This document shows, piece by piece, positions 16,250 to 46,027 of a stretch of DNA of 64,000 bases; positions within the stretch are counted from its first letter, which is position 1; each line of letters starts with the position of its first letter. This DNA comes from Flavobacterium lindanitolerans. GTDB lineage: Bacteria > Bacteroidota > Bacteroidia > Flavobacteriales > Flavobacteriaceae. Under the pieces are notes generated by a model. The model was not told the origin of the DNA. It saw only the letters and a program-made list of their open reading frames with translations, and searched no databases. The translations under genes and the position numbers were made by a program. Location of the stretch: positions 1,860,001-1,924,000 of the forward strand of contig NZ_PJND01000007.1 of NCBI RefSeq assembly GCF_002846575.1. Reading direction: 5' to 3'.

Positions 16250-16831
16250 TCAGAAAGTTATTTTTTTTAGATACTCTATAAGTTGTCTTACGGCTTGCGC
16301 ACGATGGCTTACAGCGCCCTTTTCTTCGAGTGAAAGTTGCGCAAAAGTGTAGGAAAAACCATCAGGAAGAAATACCGGGTCATAACCAAAACCATTCGTT
16401 CCTCGTCGTTCTGTGATGATAGTTCCAAATATTTTTCCTGTAAATAATGTCTGCTGACCCTTTAGGTTCAATGCAATAACGGTTTTAAAATTGGCTTTTC
16501 TATCGGTTTTATTCTCCAGTTCCAGTAACAGTTTGTCAATATTATTCTGGTCATTTTTCTGTTCGCCGGCATAACGGGCAGAGTAGACGCCGGGAGCGCC
16601 ATCCAAAGCGTTGACTTCCAATCCTGAATCATCAGCAAAGCAGTCGTAACCGTAGTTTTTGGTAACATAATCTGCTTTTAGGATAGCATTGCCCTCAATT
16701 GTGTCTGCGGTTTCAGGAATATCTTCATAACATCCAATATCTTCCAGGCTCAATATCTGTATGTCATCAGGAAGCAGGTTTTGTATTTCTTTAATTTTGT
16801 TTTTGTTGTTGGATGCGAAAACGAGCTTCAT
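16250..16831 (-). CDS. rdgB: XTP/dITP pyrophosphatase (RdgB/HAM1 family)
   Basis: Hydrolyses deaminated purine nucleoside triphosphates (ITP, dITP, XTP) to monophosphates, cleaning the nucleotide pool. 193 residues as usual. LVFASNNKNKIKEIQNLL is the N-terminal substrate loop, CFADDSGLEVNALDGAPGVY with SARYAGE the metal/catalytic segment and GFGYDPVFLPDG the base-recognition loop. The end SHRAQAVRQL is conserved. Its upstream spacer is a 490-bp repeat array, with a -7 box embedded at 16879-16886. Confidence 0.97.
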   Translation of the reverse strand: MKLVFASNNKNKIKEIQNLLPDDIQILSLEDIGCYEDIPETADTIEGNAILKADYVTKNYGYDCFADDSGLEVNALDGAPGVYSARYAGEQKNDQNNIDKLLLELENKTDRKANFKTVIALNLKGQQTLFTGKIFGTIITERRGTNGFGYDPVFLPDGFSYTFAQLSLEEKGAVSHRAQAVRQLIEYLKKITF

Positions 16832-16963
16832 GATTTAGGGTTTGTGATTTATGATTTGGGATTTATGATTTATGAATGCAAATGTACTTCAATAGAAAGT
16901 TTTGGGAACTATATTTAAGATTTGTGATTTAAGATTTATGAATGCAGATGCGTCTTAAAATTT
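16832..16963 (-). repeat. Family B repeat array upstream of rdgB
   Basis: Read on the coding (minus) strand this leader consists of AAATCATAAATCACAAATC-type phrases (plus strand: GATTTGTGATTTATGATTTG and similar). It abuts the rdgB start codon and continues into the 170-bp tandem duplication. No ORF of note. Confidence 0.75.
16879..16886 (-). promoter_or_regulatory. Candidate -7 box (TACATTTG) for rdgB inside repeat spacer
   Basis: Minus strand TACATTTG, about 48 nt before the rdgB ATG, is a full TAnnTTTG match. If active, family B repeats form the 5' untranslated leader. No TTG at the expected -33 distance. Confidence 0.4.
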
Positions 16964-17314
16964 ATTTTTGATTTGAGATTTATGATTTATGAGTATTATG
17001 AAATGTGTTTGAATCCAAAATCTTAATATCTGAAATCCATAAATGCGTTAGGTATATTTTTGATTTACGAACATCATGAAGTGGACTTCAATCCCAAATC
17101 TAAAATCTTATATCTGAAATCGATAGATGGCATATTTTTGATTTGAGATTTATAATTTATGAGTATTATGAAATGTGTTTGAATCCCAAATCTTAATATC
17201 TGAAATCCATAAATGCGTTAGATATATTTTTGATTTACGAACATCATGAAGTGGACTTCAATCCCAAATCTAAAATCTTATATCTGAAATCGATAGATGG
17301 CATATTTTTGATTT
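16964..17314. repeat. 170-bp tandem duplication (two copies plus a partial)
   Basis: GAGTATTATGAAATGTGTTT occurs at 16991 and 17161, GATGGCATATTTTTGATTT-type ends at 17126 and 17296, and all landmarks are displaced by exactly 170 bp with very few mismatches. Copies span about 16964-17133 and 17134-17303, with 11 further bases. Each unit itself looks like two diverged halves of about 85 bp, each ending in TCTGAAATC plus CATAAATGC or GATAGATGG. The content is related to family B repeats. Intergenic, between rdgB and a small hypothetical gene. Confidence 0.9.
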
Positions 17315-17317
17315 ATG

Positions 17318-17362
17318 ACTAACTACTAAACTATCTACTACCAACTATCCACTATAAACTAT
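17318..17362 (-). repeat. Family A repeat abutting a stop codon
   Basis: On the minus strand, directly at the TAA of the 101-residue gene, the sequence reads TATAGTTTATAGTGGATAGT followed by TGGTAGTAGATAGTTTAGTAG. The metallo-hydrolase gene at 18927 ends in almost the same way. Confidence 0.75.
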
Positions 17363-17664
17363 AATTCGTTGATTTCCTTCTTAAAAAAGTTTACATAAAA
17401 AAAGTCGTCCGGATCCAAACCCTGCTCCAGTATGGCAGCATTAATAAGTCCAATCTTTTCTTCATCGAGCTCTTCCGGATTGGAGAAGTTAAGAAAGGTG
17501 ACAAACTCATCACTGTTATGGAACTTAAAGCTGAGAGGCGTATTGAGAGAATATTGTGTAATCTTAAAATCGAGTTTGTTTCCCAGTTCCCGTATATGCT
17601 GTTCAGATTCTATGAAGCCGTTTTTAATCAGTGATTCTATGATGTTCTTGAAATTATCGTTCAT
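17359..17664 (-). CDS. Small acidic hypothetical protein
   Basis: 101 residues, no signal peptide or membrane helix, acidic (many Glu/Asp, e.g. FSNPEELDEEKIGLINAAI and EQGLDPDDFFYVNF). I do not recognise the family. It has a plausible globular composition and a start at MNDNFKNIIES; codon use is like its neighbours. Oriented with rdgB but separated from it by 527 bp of repeats, so probably expressed separately. Confidence 0.6.
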   Translation of the reverse strand: MNDNFKNIIESLIKNGFIESEQHIRELGNKLDFKITQYSLNTPLSFKFHNSDEFVTFLNFSNPEELDEEKIGLINAAILEQGLDPDDFFYVNFFKKEINEL

Positions 17665-17832
17665 GGTGGCTGATTTTATAAAATTGTCTTACTAATATAC
17701 GATTTAAAAATGAAATGACAGTTATGATAAATCCAACAGTTTTTTTGTTTTTGTTATATTATATTTAGCATAGCTTTTATTTTTTGAATCCAATTTATCG
17801 ATAGCTTTGGCATAGTTAAATCTCAAAATCAG

Positions 17833-18927
17833 ATGACTTTTATTTTTACTCTGTGTATACTGCTGGCAATTTCTGTCTTTTTCTTTTTTAACCATCCCAA
17901 ATTTGGAAGACGACCGTCAGGCAACCGAATGGAACGTATCAAAAAACTTTCAAATTATGGAAACGGGCAATTCCAAAATATTTCCAATACGCCAGATCTT
18001 ACTGATGGGGCGAATCTGTTTACAGTGTTAAAAGACTTTTTCTTCGGGAAAAGTAAGCGAAATATTCCATCAGGTGTTATTCCTTCACAAAAGACCGACC
18101 TGAAAAATCTGAATCCCGAAAAAGATGTATTGGTCTGGTTTGGTCACTCGTCTTATTTTATGCAGCTAAGCGGCAAGACTTTTTTGGTTGACCCGGTGTT
18201 TAGTAACCATGCTTCACCCTTATCGTTTACTGTAAATGCATTTAAAGGTTCTAATGTGTATAGTGCTGCCGATATGCCTGAGATTGATTTCTTGCTTATA
18301 TCACATGATCATTGGGACCATTTGGATTATGATACAATGCTCCAATTAAGACCAAAGGTAAAACGGATCATTACAGGATTAGGGACAGGTGAACATTTCG
18401 AACGATGGAATTTTAATATGAAAATGATTGACGAGCTTAATTGGCACGAGTCACTGGATTTGGGCTCAGGTTTTAAGATTCATACGGTTCCGGCACGCCA
18501 CTTCTCAGGCAGAGGTTTTAAGAGAAATCAGGCCATCTGGCTGACATTTGTGCTCGATACGCCACAGAAAAGAATATACGTTGGAGGTGATTCCGGCTAT
18601 GATACTTTTTTCAGACAAACAGGCGATGCATTTGGGCCTTTTGACCTTGCGATATTGGAATGCGGACAATACAACAAGAATTGGAAGTATATTCATATGA
18701 TGCCGGAACAAACGGTACAGGCCGCATTAGACCTAAATGCTAAGGTATTGTTTCCAGTGCATTGGGCCAAATTCCCGCTTGCGCTTCACGATTGGGACGA
18801 ACCTATTATAAGGGCAGTAGCTGCTGCCGAAAAGACCGGCCAACCTATTGTGCATCCTATGATTGGGGAAGTACTGGATTTAAATGTGCTGGATAGCAAA
18901 AATAAATGGTGGGAAGGAATTGATTAG
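17833..18927 (+). CDS. Metallo-beta-lactamase-fold hydrolase (UlaG/NAPE-PLD-like)
   Basis: 364 residues. An N-terminal hydrophobic helix (about 3-19, FTLCILLAISVFFFFN) suggests a membrane anchor. The hydrolase domain shows WFGHSSYFMQLSGKTFLVDP, the metal motif SHDHWDHLD (HxHxDH, about residues 157-165), PARHFSGRG and the later Asp in VGGDSGYDTFF and VHWAKF. The order matches NAPE-PLD/YtnP-like members of the L-ascorbate-6-phosphate lactonase (UlaG) superfamily; the substrate, possibly a phospholipid or lactone, cannot be told. Its stop codon is immediately followed by family A repeats. Confidence 0.85.
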   Translation: MTFIFTLCILLAISVFFFFNHPKFGRRPSGNRMERIKKLSNYGNGQFQNISNTPDLTDGANLFTVLKDFFFGKSKRNIPSGVIPSQKTDLKNLNPEKDVLVWFGHSSYFMQLSGKTFLVDPVFSNHASPLSFTVNAFKGSNVYSAADMPEIDFLLISHDHWDHLDYDTMLQLRPKVKRIITGLGTGEHFERWNFNMKMIDELNWHESLDLGSGFKIHTVPARHFSGRGFKRNQAIWLTFVLDTPQKRIYVGGDSGYDTFFRQTGDAFGPFDLAILECGQYNKNWKYIHMMPEQTVQAALDLNAKVLFPVHWAKFPLALHDWDEPIIRAVAAAEKTGQPIVHPMIGEVLDLNVLDSKNKWWEGID

Positions 18928-19040
18928 TTTATAGTGGATAGTTTATAGTGGATAGTTGATAGTGGTAAGTGGATAGTTTTTAGTTGATAATGGATAGTTA
19001 TTAGTCTATTCATCTATTCTCTATCATCTATTATCCAAAC
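18925..19040. repeat. Family A repeat array with potential long hairpin
   Basis: Starts within the TAG of the metallo-hydrolase gene: TTTATAGTGGATAG repeated about five times with small variations up to about 19000, followed by CTATTCATCTATTCTCTATC and ATCTATTATCC, which are roughly the reverse complement of the first half. The RNA could therefore fold into a long imperfect hairpin after the stop codon. Confidence 0.7.
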
Positions 19041-19049
19041 CCATACCTA

Positions 19050-19122
19050 TATAAAAATGCAAAAGCCGACCTGGAGCGATCGACTTTAGCGGTGAGAGCG
19101 TAACCCTGTTTCCAGGTCTCTC
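19050..19122 (-). ncRNA. Candidate structured small RNA (possible Flavo-1-type motif)
   Basis: In a repeat-filled spacer, this GC-richer block reads on the minus strand GAGAGACCTGGAAACAGGGT ... CGCTCTCACCGC ... GATCGCTCCAGGTCGGC followed by TTTTGCATTTTT. A perfect 8-bp stem joins GACCTGGA (plus 19111-19118 complement) and TCCAGGTC (plus 19068-19075 complement); GAGAG can alternatively pair with CTCTC. A full consensus promoter, TTG-N19-TACATTTG, stands just upstream on the same strand. No ORF fits. It does not match the SRP, 6S or tmRNA cores that I know. The Flavo-1 Rfam motif, described from Flavobacteria, is a possible identity that I cannot verify. Confidence 0.65.
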
Positions 19123-19126
19123 GGTG

Positions 19127-19156
19127 CAAATGTACTCTTATTTATTAGAACCGCAA
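19127..19156 (-). promoter_or_regulatory. Full Bacteroidota-type promoter for the small RNA
   Basis: Minus strand: TTG (plus 19154-19156), exactly 19 nt, then TACATTTG (plus 19127-19134). This is the cleanest match to the TTG/TAnnTTTG consensus in the window and predicts a start near 19120-19122, right at the structured block. Confidence 0.75.
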
Positions 19157-19162
19157 GCTTTT

Positions 19163-19320
19163 TTTAGTTTATAGTTAATATTATAGTGGATAATTGATAG
19201 TTTGTAGTGGATAGTTTTTAGTTGGCAGTTTGAAACATAAATCATAAATCTAAAACCATAAATCTAAAATCATAAATCCAAAATCTAAAATCATAAATCC
19301 AAAATCATAAATCCTTAAAA
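19163..19320. repeat. Family A then family B repeats
   Basis: From 19163 to about 19226 the A vocabulary recurs (GTGGATAATTGATAGTTTGTA and AGTGGATAGTTTTTAGTTGG), then from about 19232 to 19320 at least seven B units (AAACATAAATCATAAATCTA, AAACCATAAATCTAAAATC and so on). The remaining bases to 19465 hold AT-rich leader for the next small gene and nothing else recognisable. Confidence 0.8.
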
Positions 19321-22947: not shown

Positions 22948-25338
22948 ATGAAACAGTTAGTTATTTTTTTGCTGCTGCTACCTTTGTGGAGCAGCGCACA
23001 GCACAGCCTCTCCGGTTCCGTAACAGAAACCGGAGGCAAGGCGGTGCCTTTCACGGATGTGGCTTTATTAAAAGCACAAGATTCTACCGCTTATAGAAAC
23101 GTACTTGCCGATGAGGAAGGACGTTTTACAATAGGGTCAGTTGATAACGGACAATATATACTGAAAGCAAGCGCGATTGGAATGTCAAGCGCCTATAGAA
23201 ATATAAATGTAACAGGCGATTTACAGTTGGAGCCTCTTGTATTGTCACAAACAGCAGAAATGCTAGAAGGTGTTGAAATAGTTTCAAAACGCCCAATTGT
23301 AAAAAGACTGGTAGACCGTATGGAATTTAATGTAGAAAACTCTTCCTTATCTTCTAACAATGCATGGGAAATCCTTTCCAAAACACCGGGTGTGACCGCC
23401 ACCGGTAGCGGCAGCATTTCCGTACGCGGCAGTCAGAGTATTCTGGTAACCATCAACGACAAAAAAATATACATGTCGGGCGATGAGCTGAAACAATATC
23501 TGGAAAATACCAGCGGAGATGACGTAAAATCGATTGAAGTGATTACTAATCCACCGGCTAAATATGATGCTCAGGGAGCTGCTGTAATCAATATCAAGCT
23601 TAAAAAAGTAGTAGCATTGGGCTACAAAGGCTCTGTCAATACGGCCTATGTGCAGTCCATATATCCAAAAGCAGTAACATCTACAGGGCATTTTTATAAA
23701 GGCAAAAAGCTTTCTTTAATGGGACGCTATACTTTTGGAATGGGAGAATATGTAAACGAAAGCCGTGACAAAACACGTTATTATGATGAAAATGGAGGAA
23801 CGGCTTCAGAATGGGATAGTTTTTTGCGTCGCAAGAGCAAATCGTTGGAACAGCATTCTTACCGATTACAGGCAAGCTATGAACTGGATTCACTCAATAC
23901 GTTTTCAATAGGAACCACAGGTTTTCAGGCCCCGGAGCAGCGAGGCAGGTATAGTGCGCCAACGTCTATTTACGGTAGTGACGGGCTACTCGATTCATTA
24001 TATGTGACAACAAATAACAGAAAAAACCCGGCTCGTAATGCGGCTTATAATTTTCTATACGAACGCCTGTTGTCTGACAAGGCCAAACTGGTATTCAATA
24101 CAGACTTTACAAACTATCTTTCCAAGGACTATCAGGACATTATGACGGCCTTTTCATTGCCGGACGGTACACCTTATCGCGACAATCGTTTTATAAATAA
24201 CAGCCGACAAGCCATCAAGCTCTTTTCGATGCAGGCCGATTACAGCAATGAAACAAATGGTACGTTTGAAGCCGGATTAAAATACGGGAACGTTTCTGCT
24301 GACAGTAATCTCGATTACAGAGATGATATTGATGGAATATTGGTACCTAATCCCGGCCGAATCAGTAAGTTCCTGTATGACGAATCTATCTTTGCAGGGT
24401 ATATGAGCTATAGTAAGGAATTTGGTAAATGGAGCGTAAAGGCTGGACTACGAGGCGAATATACTTCGCTTGAAGGTAATTCGGTTACAACTTCCGAAGT
24501 CAACGACCAAAACTATTTCAAACTGTTTCCTACCTTTTATACGATGTACAAGCCCAACGGGAATCATGAAATAGGCTTTTCTTATGGCAAACGTATCAGC
24601 AGGCCGCGTTACAGTGAACTTAATCCGTTCCGAATCTATAACAATAATTATTCTTATGGCATGGGAGACCCGAAGTTATTGCCAACCATTGTGCACAACC
24701 TGAATTTCTTATATACGCTAAAAGGGAAATATAATTTTGACCTGTATTACCGATTGGAAAAAGACCCATCGATGGAAATTGTCTATCAGGATTATGAAAC
24801 AAATACGGTTGTTTACCAATTTACCAACATCGATAAAAATTATGCATTTGGATTGGAATTCAATACCAATCTGACATTTTTTGACTGGTGGGATGCCGGT
24901 ATACAGGGAGCCCTTAGTTATGTAGAAGACCGTTTTCAGGGAGTAGACGGGAAATTGTATAGCAACGGACGACCTACCTATAACTTCAATGTCAACAATC
25001 GTTTTGCTTTGAATAAGAAAAAAGATTTTAACGGGGAGATTAATTTCGATTATAACTCCTCTTCGGTGCAGGGTACGTTTGTTTTTACACCTACAAGTAA
25101 CCTGACTCTGGCATTACGGAAGAAAGTATTGAAAGGAAACGGAGAAGTATATGGCATTTTTTCCGATGTTTATCGGGGCGAGACATTAGGTTTGAGAACA
25201 GACTATGGCAACCAGTACAATAAGTCACGCTTTTATGCCGATTCACAAAACTTCAGGTTGGGATTCCGATATAATTTTGGAAACCAGAAATTAAAGGAAA
25301 AAACAAGAGAGCAGACGGAAGAGCAGAGGAGGATTTAA
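22948..25338 (+). CDS. TonB-receptor-like outer membrane beta-barrel protein (OMP_b-brl_3 type)
   Basis: 796 residues from MKQLVIFLLLLPLWSSAQ (signal peptide). Then a CarboxypepD_reg-like domain (about 19-105), a plug-like domain (about 110-220: EILSKTPGVTATGSGSISVR ... DDVKSIEVITNPPAKYDAQG) and a C-terminal beta-barrel ending NFRLGFRYNFGN. This layout is typical of the Bacteroidota outer membrane beta-barrel family related to TonB-dependent receptors. The start at 22948 is chosen because the signal peptide begins there; 27 upstream codons lie in a repeat-like leader. No SusD partner is adjacent. It faces the kinase operon across TTAACCC sites and is probably its target. Substrate unknown. 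Confidence 0.9.
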   Translation: MKQLVIFLLLLPLWSSAQHSLSGSVTETGGKAVPFTDVALLKAQDSTAYRNVLADEEGRFTIGSVDNGQYILKASAIGMSSAYRNINVTGDLQLEPLVLSQTAEMLEGVEIVSKRPIVKRLVDRMEFNVENSSLSSNNAWEILSKTPGVTATGSGSISVRGSQSILVTINDKKIYMSGDELKQYLENTSGDDVKSIEVITNPPAKYDAQGAAVINIKLKKVVALGYKGSVNTAYVQSIYPKAVTSTGHFYKGKKLSLMGRYTFGMGEYVNESRDKTRYYDENGGTASEWDSFLRRKSKSLEQHSYRLQASYELDSLNTFSIGTTGFQAPEQRGRYSAPTSIYGSDGLLDSLYVTTNNRKNPARNAAYNFLYERLLSDKAKLVFNTDFTNYLSKDYQDIMTAFSLPDGTPYRDNRFINNSRQAIKLFSMQADYSNETNGTFEAGLKYGNVSADSNLDYRDDIDGILVPNPGRISKFLYDESIFAGYMSYSKEFGKWSVKAGLRGEYTSLEGNSVTTSEVNDQNYFKLFPTFYTMYKPNGNHEIGFSYGKRISRPRYSELNPFRIYNNNYSYGMGDPKLLPTIVHNLNFLYTLKGKYNFDLYYRLEKDPSMEIVYQDYETNTVVYQFTNIDKNYAFGLEFNTNLTFFDWWDAGIQGALSYVEDRFQGVDGKLYSNGRPTYNFNVNNRFALNKKKDFNGEINFDYNSSSVQGTFVFTPTSNLTLALRKKVLKGNGEVYGIFSDVYRGETLGLRTDYGNQYNKSRFYADSQNFRLGFRYNFGNQKLKEKTREQTEEQRRI

Positions 25339-25400: not shown

Positions 25401-25434
25401 GCAATGTGCCTGTACTTTAGGATTTTTATAGAGG

Positions 25435-25464
25435 AACCTGCTTTATGGCAGGTTTTTTTTTTTT
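25435..25464 (+). terminator. Terminator upstream of the NACHT/RelA island
   Basis: AACCTGC, loop TTTATG, GCAGGTT then twelve T residues. It ends transcription from the receptor gene and insulates the following AT-rich island. Confidence 0.85.
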
Positions 25465-25535
25465 GATAAAAAAATTAAGGGAAAGGTTTTTTTCAAAATT
25501 ACGAGAAACCGTATGAAAGAAGTGTTTAATTGGAT

Positions 25536-25543
25536 TACGTTTG
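25536..25543 (+). promoter_or_regulatory. Candidate -7 box (TACGTTTG) for NACHT/RelA operon
   Basis: TACGTTTG matches TAnnTTTG and lies 93 nt before the ATG at 25637, in the 170-bp gap after the terminator. The -33 position lacks TTG, so this is tentative. Nothing else recognisable lies in the gap. Confidence 0.35.
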
Positions 25544-25636
25544 AAATGGCTTTTCTTACAGTTTGTCGAAAAGTTCGCAGGATGTGAAGCTATTTAAAAT
25601 GTTTTTTGTAGTCTTGGTTAATTGTTAATAAAATAT

Positions 25637-27796
25637 ATGACTGAAGATAAAATAAGAAAAATAGATCAATTATTTAAATCATACAATTACTCAGTATCTG
25701 AAAAATCTAATCATAAAGTAAGGATATACACTTTAAGATATGGAATGTATCATGCTGCAGAGATAATTTTGTTTGATAAAGAATATAATATAACAGAAAT
25801 AAAGAATGAATATTCAAATGCGGGGTATGCAACAGATGTAAAAACTTTAGATAATGAAAACCATCTCGAAGAATATCTTTTTGAAGGATTCTTTATAAAA
25901 ACTCCTTTAGGGAATGAATTAAGAAATAGGTATAAGCATTTTGTCAATAGACAATTACAAAATCTGCCAGAAAATAGTAAATACGAATATATAAACGGAG
26001 CATATGATCTAATTTTCCAAAATGAAGATGGTAATATTGTTGAAAACCAATCATATAATGGCACCGAAGATAAGTTAATAGATAAAATTAATCATTATTT
26101 AAGTAGAACAGAAGGTGCAATTTTTATGATTATTGAAGCGCCTGCTGGTTTTGGGAAAACATGTACTGCAAATGAAATTTTAAATACGTTTTCTCCTTCT
26201 GATTGTAAAAAACTTCCTTTTTTTACTGAGTTATCAAGAAATAGAGAAGCACGAGTATTTAAACATATTCTTCTTAACGAAATTGATGAACAGTTTCCTA
26301 ATGGAATAAAACAAAACATTGTCTTAGATCAAATCTATAAAGGGAGAATTCCTTTAATTATAGATGGTTTTGATGAGCTGATTTCTAAAGATAGTAATAA
26401 AGATGAGGTAGAAAGTATGTTAACTACAATTATTGAATTACTAAAAGGTGATTCTAAAATTGTTATAACTTCAAGAAAAACAGCAATATTTAACAGCGAT
26501 GAATTTTTAAATTCGATATATGATTCGACAAATAGATTTTCTCTAGCAAGATTTGAAATAAAAGAACCTACAATAGCAAATTGGTTAGATAAAGATAAAA
26601 TTGAGGTTATAACAAAGGCTTCATTTCCTATTGAACAGATAGCTAATCCAGTTTTGCTCTCATATTTAAGAAACATACCAATAGAAAAACTAAAAGGATA
26701 TATTGAAATATCTGACGATGGGGCTTTGATTGATAAATATTTAGAGTATTTGTTGAAAAGAGAAATACAAAGACAAAATTTAAAATTAACTGATGATACC
26801 CAAATGAGAATTTTTCGAAAGTTAATGAGATTTATGTCTGAATTTAATATTACAGCAGAATCAAAAGAAACAATAAAGGAATTAATCAAGGATTATAATC
26901 TTAAGATTTTACAAGAAAGCCTAAAGTTATATCAAGCAGAAGAGAGACCATCAATTGAAGATTTGGTCGACACGCTTTCGAATCATGTATTTTTAGATAG
27001 AAAGCCTAACGGAAGTGTAGGATTTGTGAATGACTTCATATTTGGAAACCTTGTGGGTGAAAATTTAATTTATAACAAATTTCAAGAACATTATAAGGAA
27101 AAATTTACAGAAGTTATACCGCAAGATTTTGCATTAAAATCAATAGATTCATTTAAAATTCAAAGTAAGGATAAGAAAAAATCTTTATGGTCTATTTATT
27201 CAGAGTCATCTTTCAAATATGATGTGAGTTTTTATTTTGAGTTAGATTATAGTTTACTGAAAAAGTTCGATAGAATTTATAAAAACCTTTTTTTGACAGA
27301 CAAAACAATATCAAATGTCGAATTTAATAATGATTGCTATTTTGAAGAATGTATTTTTTCAAGTGTAACTTTTGAAAATTGCATATTTAATTTATCAAAA
27401 TTTAAAACATCATCTTTTCAAAATTGTAATTTCTATGATTGCACCTTGATTATTCAGTCTAGTGATATTGAATACCATGATTTTATTATATATGCTTCGT
27501 ATTCCAATAATACTTTTCTTAATGATATTGCAGATCATTTCAGCCAAGATTATTCAATTGGAGATAGTGATAAAAAATTGGAAGAAGAAGAAGTTTTAAG
27601 ACATTTTTTTCAGATTGATGGAGTAAAACCAAGAGCCAGAAAGTTTTCATATATAAAAAAGTCATTAAGTGATTATTCAGATAGGGAAGTTAGCAAAGTA
27701 ATTGAAGGCCTAAAAAGGAAAGAATATTTACATTTTAAAGATGATGTAGGTTTTATTACTAGAGAAGCTATAAATTATTTAAATCATAATAGATAA
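25637..27796 (+). CDS. NACHT-type STAND NTPase with pentapeptide-like repeats and C-terminal winged helix
   Basis: 719 residues from ATG 25637 (an in-frame TTG 5 codons earlier is less likely). N-terminal domain (about 1-95, RIYTLRYGMYHAAEIILFDK and EYNITEIKNEYSNAGYATDV) recurs, to my memory, at the front of other bacterial NTPases; its EIK could be part of a nuclease-like fold but that is weak. NTPase: P-loop EAPAGFGKT (about 166-174), Walker B IPLIIDGFDELI (about 238-249) with the DGFDE signature of NACHT proteins, and KIVITSRKTAIF (about 275). A helical region follows, then degenerate pentapeptide repeats (about 560-608: VEFNNDCYFEECIFSSVTFE ...) that could act as the sensor or scaffold, and a possible winged helix at the end. 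Strikingly AT-rich (one sampled 60-base line has 14 G/C). One base from the next gene. Likely an antiphage-type sensor ATPase. Confidence 0.85.
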   Translation: MTEDKIRKIDQLFKSYNYSVSEKSNHKVRIYTLRYGMYHAAEIILFDKEYNITEIKNEYSNAGYATDVKTLDNENHLEEYLFEGFFIKTPLGNELRNRYKHFVNRQLQNLPENSKYEYINGAYDLIFQNEDGNIVENQSYNGTEDKLIDKINHYLSRTEGAIFMIIEAPAGFGKTCTANEILNTFSPSDCKKLPFFTELSRNREARVFKHILLNEIDEQFPNGIKQNIVLDQIYKGRIPLIIDGFDELISKDSNKDEVESMLTTIIELLKGDSKIVITSRKTAIFNSDEFLNSIYDSTNRFSLARFEIKEPTIANWLDKDKIEVITKASFPIEQIANPVLLSYLRNIPIEKLKGYIEISDDGALIDKYLEYLLKREIQRQNLKLTDDTQMRIFRKLMRFMSEFNITAESKETIKELIKDYNLKILQESLKLYQAEERPSIEDLVDTLSNHVFLDRKPNGSVGFVNDFIFGNLVGENLIYNKFQEHYKEKFTEVIPQDFALKSIDSFKIQSKDKKKSLWSIYSESSFKYDVSFYFELDYSLLKKFDRIYKNLFLTDKTISNVEFNNDCYFEECIFSSVTFENCIFNLSKFKTSSFQNCNFYDCTLIIQSSDIEYHDFIIYASYSNNTFLNDIADHFSQDYSIGDSDKKLEEEEVLRHFFQIDGVKPRARKFSYIKKSLSDYSDREVSKVIEGLKRKEYLHFKDDVGFITREAINYLNHNR

Positions 27797-27797
27797 T

Positions 27798-28694
27798 ATG
27801 AATGCAGGATTTAAAATTATTGAACGAGAAATTTTAGAAAAAATTAAAGATGAACTAGATAAGATAGGAATGTTTTATAGATTATTTGGTAGAATTAAAG
27901 ATGATAAATCAATTAAAGAGAAAATTTCTAGAAAGTTTGAAGAAGGACAAGAATATAAAATTGAAGGTAAAAAGATACAAGATTTGTTAGGTATAAGAGT
28001 AGTTACATACTTTAAAGATGATATAATTTTGGTAAAAGAAATTTTAAGTAAAAAATTTGATTTTATTGATGAAGAAATAGATGAATTAGATCTAACAGTT
28101 TTTAAACCTAAACGAACAAATATTATATGCGAATTCAGTAATGATCAAAAAGAAGTGATGCAAGAAGTCAAAAAGGCGACACAAAATATTGATTATGAAC
28201 TGATAGATGATACTTTTGAATTGCAATTAAGAACAGTTCTCTCTGAAGGATGGCACGAAATCGATCACGGATTAAGATATAAATGTAAATTGGACTGGCA
28301 AGGACGTACTGAAGAAGAGAGAATGTTAAATGGTATTTATGCCACTTTGGAGACAAATGATATAGTATTAAAAAATTTATTTAATGAATTAGCATATAAG
28401 CATTTTAAAAATAATAACTGGGAAGCACTGATGAGAACGAAATTCCGGTTAAAATTTCAGATGGGATCTTTAAACTCTGAAATAATAGATATTTTGGATA
28501 AAAAAATGGTAATAGGGAAAAAGATTTTAAAACTTGATAGAATTGAAGTGTTAAAAAAAATCGCTAAGTCTGATTTTTCTTTGCCAGTCAATTTAAATAA
28601 TTTATTTTACTTAATTAATGGTTTTGAAATTAAAGACGAAGATGTGTTTGCTATAACACCCGAACTTATTATAAGTTTTTTTAAAAAGCAGTGA
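27798..28694 (+). CDS. RelA/SpoT-fold nucleotidyltransferase-like protein, partner of NACHT NTPase
   Basis: 298 residues, no hydrolase, TGS or ACT domain, so it is a small-alarmone-synthetase-like protein. RIKDDKSIKEKI (about 32-43) corresponds to the ATP-binding R-x-K-x-x-S segment, QDLLGIRVVTYF (about 61-72) to the D-x-x-G-x-R strand with the metal Asp, and FELQLRTVLSEGWHEIDHGL (about 140-159) to the E-x-Q-I-R-T catalytic-Glu strand and following helix. The usual Y-R-S-x-H acceptor-stacking motif between them is not visible; that place reads KRTNIICEFSND. It could make (p)ppGpp, or like toxSAS enzymes pyrophosphorylate another acceptor such as tRNA or adenosine nucleotides. The C-terminal 110 residues are unrecognised. 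Same AT-rich composition as the NACHT gene and 1 nt downstream, so one operon; inferred toxic effector of an abortive-infection system. Confidence 0.82.
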   Translation: MNAGFKIIEREILEKIKDELDKIGMFYRLFGRIKDDKSIKEKISRKFEEGQEYKIEGKKIQDLLGIRVVTYFKDDIILVKEILSKKFDFIDEEIDELDLTVFKPKRTNIICEFSNDQKEVMQEVKKATQNIDYELIDDTFELQLRTVLSEGWHEIDHGLRYKCKLDWQGRTEEERMLNGIYATLETNDIVLKNLFNELAYKHFKNNNWEALMRTKFRLKFQMGSLNSEIIDILDKKMVIGKKILKLDRIEVLKKIAKSDFSLPVNLNNLFYLINGFEIKDEDVFAITPELIISFFKKQ

Positions 28695-28774
28695 TAGTTA
28701 TGCATTATAGATTCAACTAATTTTTGAAAATCTCTATTATATAGATCAGTTGTAATTTATAATTGCTTCAAAAA

Positions 28775-29614
28775 ATGATATTACCTATACTCAACATCGA
28801 AAAGTTCCGTGCGGGGCAACTAGCCGGTAAGGATGAACTTTTGTTTAATGAGCTTCATGGAGAAAGGCATATTGACGAACCGCATAAACATGACTTTTTT
28901 TCGATATTACTTTTTGAAAAAGGAGAAGGGAATCATACGATTGATTCGGTTGAATACGAAATAAAAAATAGCCAGGTTCATTTGCTTTTTCCGGGACAGT
29001 TGCATAAATGGAATATCAAATCAGGTACAATTGGTTATCAGTTAATGGCGGAGCGGACATTTTTTGAACAGTTTGCACCCTATTTCCGATTTTCGATTAC
29101 TGACTATCAGAATCATCCTGTGTTTGAGTTGGAAAATTCTACGTTTAACAGTTTGCTATATGAATTCAAGGCTGTTAAAGAAGAATTACAAAAAACCGAT
29201 TCCCAAAATCATATCATTTACCTGCGTGCTGCTATCATTGCCAGCTTAGTTAGCAATGAAGCCGAAAAGTTGTTGTCAACACTTAAAGCTTATGAGTCTA
29301 ATCCAAGATTGGCAAAATTCAATACGCTAGTTGACCAATTTTTTAAAGAACAGAAGCAGGTAGCCTTTTATGCAAATGAATTACATGTTTCTGCCAATTA
29401 CCTAAACATTCTTTGCAGAAAGCATTTAAAGGCTTCTGCTACACAACTGATTCAACAGCGAGTCAGTACAGAATCCAAACGTTTGTTGAGCAATACCAAT
29501 CTTTCTATCAAAGAAATAGCCTTTGAATTGGGTTTTGCTGACCATGCTTATTTTTCTAATTTTTTTAAAAGCCAGACAGGAATGACTCCCAGTGCATTTA
29601 GAGAAAAGAGATAA
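28775..29614 (+). CDS. AraC-family transcriptional regulator
   Basis: 279 residues from ATG 28775 (a TTG four codons earlier is possible). N-terminal cupin-like effector domain with EPHKHDFFSILLFEKGEG (His pair of the cupin) and a C-terminal double helix-turn-helix: QVAFYANELHVSANYLNILC and SIKEIAFELGFADHAYFSNF then FKSQTGMTPSAFRE. Base composition returns to the genome norm, marking the right edge of the AT-rich island. Target unknown; the next gene on the strand is an ankyrin lipoprotein 146 bp away. Confidence 0.92.
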   Translation: MILPILNIEKFRAGQLAGKDELLFNELHGERHIDEPHKHDFFSILLFEKGEGNHTIDSVEYEIKNSQVHLLFPGQLHKWNIKSGTIGYQLMAERTFFEQFAPYFRFSITDYQNHPVFELENSTFNSLLYEFKAVKEELQKTDSQNHIIYLRAAIIASLVSNEAEKLLSTLKAYESNPRLAKFNTLVDQFFKEQKQVAFYANELHVSANYLNILCRKHLKASATQLIQQRVSTESKRLLSNTNLSIKEIAFELGFADHAYFSNFFKSQTGMTPSAFREKR

Positions 29615-29760: not shown

Positions 29761-30414
29761 ATGAAAGGTATACTTTTAATGGCAATGATAGCAGTAACTG
29801 CTTCTTGCCCTTCTTTAACTCAAACAACTCAAGAAATGAATCAGAATGTTTTAGAATTAGTGCAGAAAAATGATGTAAATGGAATGACAAAAGCACTAGA
29901 AAATGGAGCTAATGCAAATACAGCCGATACTAATAAAAATTCGTTGTTATTAATTGCAACCAGAAACGGACAGACAGAAATGGCAAAGTTGCTGATAAAA
30001 CACGGAGCTGATGTCAACCAGCAGTCGGATAATTTGGATAGCGCTTTTTTATATGCAGGTGCAAGCGGACAAACAGAATTGGTACAGCTGTATTTAGACA
30101 ATGGAGCACGCTTTGATCTTTTTAACCAATATAATGGAACGGCACTTATTCCGGCTTGCGAACGCGGACATGTGGAAACCGTCAGATTATTAGCAAATAC
30201 TAAAAATTTTCCAATAGACCATGTCAACCGTTTAGGCTGGACAGCTTTGATGGAAGCAATTGTGTTAGGAAATGGCAGCAAAAAATACCAGGAAATTATT
30301 CAAATTTTAAAAGATGCCGGATCCCGTTTGGATATTCCGGATAGTGATGGCGTAAGTCCTTTGCAGCATGCCAAGAATAGAGGCTTTAAAGAGATTGTAG
30401 CCATATTGCAGTAA
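29761..30414 (+). CDS. Ankyrin-repeat lipoprotein
   Basis: 217 residues. The N-terminus MKGILLMAMIAVTASC has a lipobox-like end with Cys at residue 16, so it is probably exported and lipidated. Five ankyrin repeats follow (for example NSLLLIATRNGQTEMAKLLI with KHGADVN, and GVSPLQHAKNRGFKEIVAIL). Ankyrin repeats mediate protein binding. It may be regulated by the AraC gene upstream, an inference from position only. Ended by a long hairpin at 30463-30500. Confidence 0.85.
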   Translation: MKGILLMAMIAVTASCPSLTQTTQEMNQNVLELVQKNDVNGMTKALENGANANTADTNKNSLLLIATRNGQTEMAKLLIKHGADVNQQSDNLDSAFLYAGASGQTELVQLYLDNGARFDLFNQYNGTALIPACERGHVETVRLLANTKNFPIDHVNRLGWTALMEAIVLGNGSKKYQEIIQILKDAGSRLDIPDSDGVSPLQHAKNRGFKEIVAILQ

Positions 30415-44420: not shown

Positions 44421-44556
44421 CAGATAGCAGGTAGCAGTTTTCTGGCGGCAGGTAACAGGTTTTTAGTGTAATGTATAAGCGCAAATCCAAAATCTTAAAT
44501 CTTAAATCTTCAATCTAAAATCTAAAAACCGCCATCTAAAATCACAAATTTATAAT
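44421..44556 (+). repeat. A-like then B repeats between YfhO-like and GT4 genes
   Basis: CAGATAGCAGGTAGCAG and GGCGGCAGGTAACAGG (an A-like variant) precede AATCCAAAATCTTAAATCTT and CAATCTAAAATCTAAAA (family B). Fills the whole 142-bp gap, ending right before the GT4 start codon. Confidence 0.7.
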
Positions 44557-44557
44557 T

Positions 44558-45838
44558 TTGAAAAAGGTACTCATCATAACTTATTATTGGCCACCGGCAG
44601 GAGGACCCGGAGTGCAGCGCTGGTTAAAGTTTGTAAAGTACCTCCCTGATTTTGGTATTCAGCCAATTGTTTATATTCCCGAAAACCCAACCTATCCGAT
44701 TCTGGATGAGGAGTTGGTTTCTGAAGTTTCCGATAAGGCCATTATATTGAAGAAGAAAATTTTCGAGCCATATGGGTTTGCCTCCATTTTTTCCAGGAAA
44801 AAGACCAAAAAAATCAGTTCGGGAATTATTCCAAATCAAAAAAAGCAATCCCTTCTGGAAAAACTTTTTCTTTGGATTCGGGGTAATGTTTTTATTCCGG
44901 ATGCCAGGGTGTTTTGGGTAAAACCGTCGGTATTGTTTCTGGAGAAATACATTCGTGAAAACGAAATCGATACAATAATAACTTCCGGCCCTCCACACAG
45001 TCTCCATCTTATAGGATTGGCTTTAAAAGAAAGAACAAAAGCACACTGGATAGCAGATTTCAGAGACCCGTGGACAACCATAGGCTATCATAATAAACTG
45101 AAATTATCCGCATCGGCTGCAAAGAAACATAAAGAACTGGAATCTATTGTATTGAATGAAGCCGATCAGATTTTAGTAACCAGCCAAACGACCAAAAAAG
45201 AGTTTGAGGTGCTGACTACAAAACCGATAGAAATCATTACAAATGGTTTTGATGTAGAAAAAGTAGCCCGGCAGCCTTTGGACGAAAAATTCAGCATAGC
45301 GCATATTGGTTCCTTTTTATCTGAAAGGAATCCGAGAATATTATGGAAATGCCTTAAAGAAATCATTAAAGAAAACCCTGATTTCAAAAAAGATTTTGAA
45401 TTGAAACTGATAGGAGCTGTAAGTCAGGAAGTGCTGGATGCCCTTGCAGAATTCAGGCTGAACTCTTATGTAAACAATCTGGGTTATGTTTCGCACAAGA
45501 CAGCAGTTGAACACCAGAAAAAATCACAGGTGCTGCTTTTGGTCGAAATCAATTCTGAGGACACAAAAAGTATCATACCGGGAAAATTATTTGAATACAT
45601 GGCCTCAGAACGTCCCATACTGGCAATAGGTCCTGAAGGTTCAGATTTCGCTTCTATCATAAAAGAAACAAATACAGGTGCCTTTTTCCATTATGATGAA
45701 TTCGATGCCCTGAAAGAACGTATTCTGGCTTATTATGCCGCTTATAAAGAAGATAACCTTAAAACATATGCCGTCGGTTTACAACAGTACAGTCGAAAAA
45801 GCCTTACTGAAAAGCTGTCGAAAATTATACGAAAGTGA
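44558..45838 (+). CDS. Glycosyltransferase family 4 (GT-B) protein
   Basis: 426 residues. N-terminal KKVLIITYYWPPAGGPGVQR is the start of many GT4 proteins (Gly-rich donor loop), with ADFRDPWT (acceptor side) and a C-terminal Rossmann half with IAHIGSFLSERNPR, LGYVSHKTAVEHQKKS and IPGKLFEYMASERPILAIGP (E-x7-E-like nucleotide-sugar motif). Cytosolic or peripheral membrane. The start is TTG at 44558: no in-frame ATG exists after the TAA at 44537-44539. Probably adds a sugar in surface-polysaccharide assembly with the flippase that follows. Confidence 0.9.
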   Translation: MKKVLIITYYWPPAGGPGVQRWLKFVKYLPDFGIQPIVYIPENPTYPILDEELVSEVSDKAIILKKKIFEPYGFASIFSRKKTKKISSGIIPNQKKQSLLEKLFLWIRGNVFIPDARVFWVKPSVLFLEKYIRENEIDTIITSGPPHSLHLIGLALKERTKAHWIADFRDPWTTIGYHNKLKLSASAAKKHKELESIVLNEADQILVTSQTTKKEFEVLTTKPIEIITNGFDVEKVARQPLDEKFSIAHIGSFLSERNPRILWKCLKEIIKENPDFKKDFELKLIGAVSQEVLDALAEFRLNSYVNNLGYVSHKTAVEHQKKSQVLLLVEINSEDTKSIIPGKLFEYMASERPILAIGPEGSDFASIIKETNTGAFFHYDEFDALKERILAYYAAYKEDNLKTYAVGLQQYSRKSLTEKLSKIIRK

Positions 45839-45844
45839 ATTTAG

Positions 45845-46027
45845 AATTAAGATGATAGAGAATAGTTGATAGTGGATAGTTATTAGTGGATAGTTGATAG
45901 TGGATAGTCGGTAGAGGATAGACAGTTTAGGTAAAGAAATCACAAATCAAAAATCATAAATCAAAAATCAGAGTTCATGAATCACAAATCTAAAATCATA
46001 AATCAAAAAACATAAATCCAAATCGCC
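45845..46027 (+). repeat. Family A then family B repeats between GT4 and flippase genes
   Basis: After the GT4 stop, ATAGTTGATAGTGGATAGTT and variants recur five times to about 45922, then AATCACAAATCAAAAATCAT, AAATCAAAAATCAGAG, and similar B units recur to the ATG at 46029. About 190 bp without any ORF. Matches the composite spacer plan described in the findings. Confidence 0.8.

Follow-up and report, generated by a model that had tools for sequence, protein, structure and literature searches.

The effector of the bacterial NACHT protein bNACHT25, a PD-(D/E)XK DNase, lies within the same chain as the NACHT ATPase (PMC12169576). In CapRel, the sensor/antitoxin is fused to the enzyme (PMC11559606, PMC9712102, PMC11782079), and a tyrosine of the acceptor loop (G-loop) is critical in both CapRel and FaRel2 (PMC9712102, PMC11782079). 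The (p)ppApp synthetase Apk2 carries a GxN signature instead of SxH and is a toxin domain of MuF polymorphic toxins, which come with immunity proteins (PMC12226406). Among the NTP-dependent, multi-component conflict systems surveyed by Kaur et al. 2020, RelA nucleotidyltransferase effectors are less frequent and NACHT ATPases sporadic (PMC7159879). We analyzed a stretch of 64,000 nucleotides of the Flavobacterium lindanitolerans genome (the window; contig NZ_PJND01000007.1, positions 1,860,001 to 1,924,000), in which a gene for a NACHT STAND ATPase is directly followed by a gene for a RelA/SpoT-fold (RSH) protein. The two genes form a conserved, mobile and co-diverging pair, whose RSH enzyme has an intact donor/catalytic site and a replaced acceptor loop. 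We consider it probable that the pair is a mobile, two-gene bacterial-NLR abortive-infection system, in which the RSH effector would act in trans on an acceptor other than GTP or GDP.

The NACHT gene, the proposed sensor or switch, spans 25637..27796 on the + strand and encodes 719 aa, as assigned by open reading frame (ORF) call, Pfam and fold match. The earliest start of this ORF is a TTG at 25622 and the best start is the ATG at 25637. The RSH gene, the proposed effector, spans 27798..28694 on the same strand in a separate frame and encodes 298 aa. The junction (27794..27800, +) consists of the NACHT stop, 1 nt, and the RSH start, and translational coupling of the two genes is likely here. 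The ORF coordinates and Pfam thus agree with an earlier reading of this DNA, made from the letters alone (the sequence-only reading), which had described two genes 1 nt apart encoding a NACHT NTPase and a stand-alone RelA/SpoT-fold protein.

The RSH gene lies directly 3' of the NACHT gene in 27 of 28 family loci, the window included, which supplies the recurrent adjacency that the sequence-only reading had named as support. A profile of the RSH protein, run over species genomes, gave 21 loci, of which 17 are paired, one is truncated where its contig stops (L014, outside the 28 loci counted) and three are outside the family. The latter (L020-L022) were rejected as members, as their loop still has the canonical tyrosine and a NACHT gene of this kind is absent beside them. 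All 17 readable Bacteroidota orthologues have the NACHT orthologue directly upstream of the RSH gene. Other paired loci are L029, L031, an E. coli element (L050; further copies of it, L051-L053 and L065-L068, were left out of the count), L054-L057, a second variant from E. coli, located between rcnR and thiM (L061), and L069 on a second viral-collection contig. L055-L057 are on Pantoea and Klebsiella plasmids, and L054 is on a Yersinia hibernica plasmid, where the NACHT gene is truncated beside IS1 and the RSH gene is full-length. The spacing between the two genes ranges from -8 to +2 nt in 23/23 pairs, and is -4 in ten of them. A mirror-tree comparison gave correlations of 0.958 for the 23 pairs and 0.915 for the 17 closest, values that include species history; in each case 0 of 10000 permutations reached as high. 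This shows co-inheritance of NACHT and RSH, not contact. The NACHT homologues P0121 and P0123 (74%) have no matching RSH among the 120 listed of 430 RSH homologues, so that these may be cases of NACHT without RSH. The sole unpaired family locus (L058) is in Lachnospira eligens, where the RSH is without a NACHT neighbour. Here, a megaplasmid gene (L058:5794-7623) encodes a 609-aa protein that combines the same RSH-subfamily domain with a candidate defence region resembling HEC-07 (PADLOC, 2.2e-12), as would be expected of a portable effector. This fusion gene lies immediately 3' of a gene for adenosine deaminase.

The RelA_SpoT synthetase domain of the RSH protein covers residues 31-164 (27888..28289, +; PF04607, E 2.7e-15). 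Its donor and catalytic residues, Arg32, Lys34, Asp62, Arg67 and Glu141, are those of RelQ-type synthetases and are invariant in 48/48 distinct rows of the alignment. The acceptor loop, canonically FGYxSLH, is replaced by FKPKRTN at residues 102-108 (28101..28121, +). In all 48 distinct rows GYxSxH has become (A/P)x(R/K)xN: the tyrosine is changed to alanine in 30 and to proline in 18, the serine to arginine in 46 and to lysine in two, and the histidine to asparagine in every row. Three canonical comparison rows read GYRSLH, GYLSLH and QYSSVH. Because the loop is replaced, both the guanine-recognizing loop and the tyrosine of CapRel and FaRel2 are missing, and since the substrate pocket is rebuilt, the enzyme probably acts on a different target. 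Thus, the likeness to RelA/SpoT-fold toxins proposed in the sequence-only reading extends to the synthetase fold and the donor site, but not to the acceptor loop, which is neither canonical nor toxSAS-like. The synthetase domain is followed by a helical C-terminal domain (residues 171-298; 28308..28691, +; pI 8.75) with conserved basic residues Arg213, Lys215, Arg217, Lys241 and Arg248, which is predicted to provide the surface for docking or for tRNA. Structure comparison of the predicted model places the RSH fold with the RelQ type. Foldseek global TM-scores of the model are 0.27-0.38 by query length, where the known structures are without the C-terminal domain and the superposition is poor. 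Matches to cyclin and SATB1 (E 0.2-0.8) were regarded as chance.

The NACHT protein begins with an NA-iREase2 domain (residues 8-124; 25658..26008, +; PF22723, E 1.9e-31), a family that Pfam names as inactive. Of the acidic residues in the N-terminal region of 55 aligned sequences, Glu78 alone is invariant, while Asp10, Glu42 and Glu79 are nearly so. The NACHT domain itself was detected with PF05729 (E 1e-7; 32.3 bits against a cut-off of 26.7). Walker A is EAPAGFGKT (residues 167-175; 26135..26161, +), with Glu167, Ala168, Ala170, Gly171, Gly173, Lys174 and Thr175 invariant across the 55 sequences. Walker B is LIIDGFDE (residues 240-247; 26354..26377, +), with DGFDE in 23/23 pairs. Both motifs have close counterparts in all 23 aligned pairs, so that the P-loop and DGFDE picked out from the sequence hold across these pairs. 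The predicted model (pLDDT 83.7) contains the NACHT core, a beta stack and a C-terminus of mixed helix and strand. NOD2, NLRP3 and other NLRs are its best fold matches, with other AAA+ proteins about 2 Z units lower, and the NACHT model thus has an NLR-type fold. The sequence-only reading had also seen pentapeptide-like repeats and a C-terminal winged helix. The predicted model does show a pentapeptide-like stack, a candidate sensor region, at residues 547-604 (27275..27448, +), and the secondary structure of residues 650-719 (27584..27793, +) is consistent with a winged helix; the pentapeptide Pfam models scored below their cut-offs. No NACHT-RSH fusions were found by Pfam annotation among the 120 listed of 1389 NACHT homologues. 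Since the N-terminus belongs to a family named as inactive and retains Glu78 as its sole invariant acidic residue, it is natural to suppose that the effector acts in trans.

The pair lies in an inserted segment that holds the two-gene cassette only (25413..28748, no strand), as defined by the G+C content and an empty site in a congeneric genome (G785, locus L049). In the alignment, this genome has 141 bp where the window has 25413-28748, which indicates a clean two-gene insertion without a recombinase of its own and bears out the transferred island proposed earlier. The compositional contrast also stands: G+C is 26.2% in the insert vs 37.4% in the rest of the window, and G+C at third codon positions (GC3) is 0.17 and 0.19 in the cassette genes and 0.41 and 0.33 in the flanking genes. 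The flanks are outside the system. On the left is an outer-membrane beta-barrel/TonB-type receptor gene (22948..25338, +), the product of which is 90% identical to its G785 counterpart, and on the right is an AraC-family regulator gene (28775..29614, +; 92%). The left edge of the insert contains an intrinsic-terminator-like hairpin with a T run (25430..25459, +), which is a consensus match only, with 1 observed vs 0.7 expected in shuffles. Rfam gave nothing above its gathering score in the window, leaving the insertion site without a non-coding RNA match, and no tRNA genes were found in the 64 kb. Short related intergenic repeats are present at the empty insertion site (L049:7276-7446) and at about 16800-19300 and 44480-46020 of the window.

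The distribution is sporadic. Both genes occur in 4/299 genomes of the family (own genome included), in the same four and at the same places, and the NACHT gene was found in 3/199 genomes of the genus and in 1/395 of a phylum-wide draw, the one being its own. The pair is present in Bacteroidota and in Enterobacterales, where it resides on plasmids and on an integrative element of E. coli. One of the three genus genomes holds a divergent pair (L031:296-3303; 40% over the matched stretch), with the RSH gene overlapping the NACHT gene. Its RSH shows 42.9% identity to the enterobacterial RSH vs 37.8% to that of the window, and its NACHT protein 36.1% vs 34.9%, a small gap; as identities, these values fit horizontal spread without proving it. 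No phage-borne copies were found in 50,697 phage records, and a scan of viral contigs with a Vibrio relative as the query found nothing. The E. coli RSH has 2808 homologues, and the 120 of them listed include proteins from Vibrio, Photobacterium, Pseudomonas and Aeromonas. For Vibrio and Pseudomonas, genome sets of 58 and 398 were scanned without a match; these samples were without a positive genome and hence uninformative on adjacency.

In E. coli, 67 of 5426 complete genomes contain a matching stretch, 66 of them at 99% identity or above, and at least 80% of the pair query is found in 54. In one record, viewed at full width (L059:10073-23920), the pair is on an integrative element beside ssrA. 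Around the pair, this element carries genes for a relaxase and an ankyrin protein, twin ParB-like genes, two genes of the recombinase/integrase type and a remnant of DUF4928. We picked 30 E. coli records by even steps and classed them by feature names. Two whole genes are present in 14 of these; the NACHT gene is split or interrupted in eight and truncated in three; two have an intact NACHT gene with a split RSH gene; two, one of which was opened, are remnants of just the RSH end; and one is the second variant. Four of the broken-NACHT records were opened, and all four retain a full-length RSH gene, while the NACHT gene is full-length in the one RSH-broken record opened. Since copies with a broken partner exist, NACHT and RSH each appear to be non-lethal alone.

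We propose that the NACHT protein works as a switch akin to NLRs, which would sense an infection cue, probably via its iREase-like N-terminus and/or its pentapeptide/winged-helix C-terminus, and would then bind ATP and oligomerize. The oligomer may switch on the co-translated RSH protein; action in trans is suggested because no effector recognized as active is present in the NACHT chain. The RSH enzyme would move pyrophosphate from ATP to an acceptor other than GTP or GDP. The likeliest candidate is an adenine 3'-OH, either at the CCA end of tRNA or on adenosine nucleotides, the latter giving (pp)pApp and loss of ATP. Translation or energy metabolism would halt, and the infection would abort; an antiphage function of the pair is what we infer. 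More tentative, though still a serious possibility, is the wider claim that an NLR-type receptor works through an alarmone-synthetase-fold enzyme in trans, that the tyrosine-free acceptor site marks a pyrophosphokinase of new specificity, and that a new tRNA or nucleotide modification serves as an immune effector in Bacteroidota and Gammaproteobacteria.

The tight coupling of the two genes, and the precedent of toxSAS enzymes as toxins encoded in two-gene loci (PMC11559606), would also suit a toxin-antitoxin module, in which RSH is constitutively toxic in the manner of toxSAS, the NACHT ATPase is its antitoxin, and release on phage attack causes cell death. We regard this as unlikely. Non-lethality of each protein alone counts against NACHT as an antitoxin: with RSH expression in these strains assumed, full-length RSH persists beside an interrupted or truncated NACHT gene in all four E. 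coli loci opened and on the Y. hibernica plasmid, and the reverse case of a whole NACHT gene with a broken RSH gene also occurs. A neutralizing antitoxin, either adjacent or fused, would be expected of a toxSAS or CapRel enzyme; here, NACHT is the one gene regularly found next to RSH. On the basis of the four E. coli strains and the plasmid, we interpret NACHT as an activator, not an antitoxin.

Small alarmone synthetases are the sequence-nearest solved relatives of RSH, which would agree with a stress or developmental module where NACHT gates ordinary alarmone synthesis to tune growth, with no role in defence. This is somewhat less credible again, since the canonical guanine-recognizing loop is missing in all distinct rows, an additional RelA_SpoT gene (in a frame of 556-753 aa) is present in four of the 4 genomes checked, and the distribution is sporadic, on plasmids and islands. 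The loss of the loop tyrosine, together with the restriction-endonuclease-like family of the NACHT N-terminus, could instead mean that the effector role falls to NACHT itself, with the RSH-fold protein having lost catalysis and serving to regulate or to sense nucleotides. Invariance of the donor and catalytic residues would be unexpected in a dead enzyme, however, and the N-terminal family is the one named as inactive, with its single invariant acidic residue; we rate this reading as very improbable. That the two genes are chance neighbours in a generic transferred segment has in its favour only that short intergenic gaps are common in bacteria, and is already refuted by the pairing across the family loci and by their co-divergence.

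The genes around the pair were compared with controls using PADLOC at 1e-8. The 144 neighbour ORFs matched 22 models under 13 names, and 144 control ORFs matched four models; the controls were a sample of the 157 ORFs present in 20 regions taken arbitrarily from five of the genomes. Because it is models that were tallied, not individual proteins, and some of the models are generic, this excess of defence models is suggestive only. The selection excluded ORFs of more than 1200 aa, those that overlap the pair and all ORFs of locus L014; 142 of 144 selected ORFs were used (L009:13323-16319 and L013:10719-14129, both long, were dropped) and two were added. A conserved third gene was rejected, as each Pfam family is limited to three or fewer of the 144 neighbour ORFs (E 1e-6). 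The window surroundings contain one PADLOC candidate, an ankyrin-repeat protein at 29761-30414 (PDC-M72A, 3.4e-27), encoded by the next gene after the AraC regulator.

No PADLOC v2.0.0 model matches the window pair at E 0.1 and nothing in NCBIfam 20.0 scores above cut-off with the pair or with the relatives checked, so that the pair is unnamed in both despite the number of complete E. coli genomes that hold most of it. From the E. coli pair, RSH alone matches PDC-S33, weakly, at 8.4e-5. A literature search on NACHT with RelA/SpoT, toxSAS, CapRel or alarmone gave no description of the pair among the open-licence papers covered, with subscription papers and DefenseFinder outside its scope. None of the three outcomes that the sequence-only reading had set against itself, namely RSH homologues that never adjoin NACHT genes, a vertical distribution, or an existing named system, appeared. 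We describe the pair as a probable bacterial NLR whose effector would act in trans and belong to a new class, an earlier description being conceivable beyond the open-licence papers. If this is true, two known arms of bacterial immunity come together in one two-gene system: the NLR-like switch, and growth inhibition by RelA/SpoT-fold proteins. The changed acceptor loop poses a direct biochemical question, which molecule receives the pyrophosphate, and the natural intact and broken E. coli copies make the pair testable in laboratory strains.

Compared with described systems, the window NACHT protein resembles bNACHT proteins such as bNACHT25 in its central NACHT ATPase, Walker A/B motifs, NLR-type fold and mobile distribution. 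Unlike bNACHT25, it starts with an NA-iREase2 domain that Pfam lists as inactive, and its candidate effector, the RSH-fold protein, is encoded by a gene of its own. The nearest earlier mention that we found is by Kaur et al. 2020, in whose systems RelA domains and NACHT ATPases each appear; the text examined describes no NACHT-RSH gene pair and no changed acceptor loop. The RSH protein shares its synthetase fold and ATP-donor site with toxSAS and CapRel enzymes (FaRel2, PhRel2, CapRelSJ46), but the acceptor-loop tyrosine described for CapRel and FaRel2 is found in 0/48 rows, it has a NACHT partner where they have none, and no CapRel match was found by sequence at E 1. It is nearest to RelQ/SAS1 and RelP/SAS2 by sequence and fold, with the same donor and catalytic residues, and differs from them in the replaced GYxSxH and in an additional helical domain of about 125 aa at the C-terminus; its score with the NCBIfam YjbM model is 37.2 bits against a cut-off of 320. 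As described for Apk2, asparagine replaces histidine at the syn3 site. However, Apk2 is a toxin domain with a GxN motif, whereas in the window RSH the motif is (A/P)x(R/K)xN and the partner is a NACHT protein.

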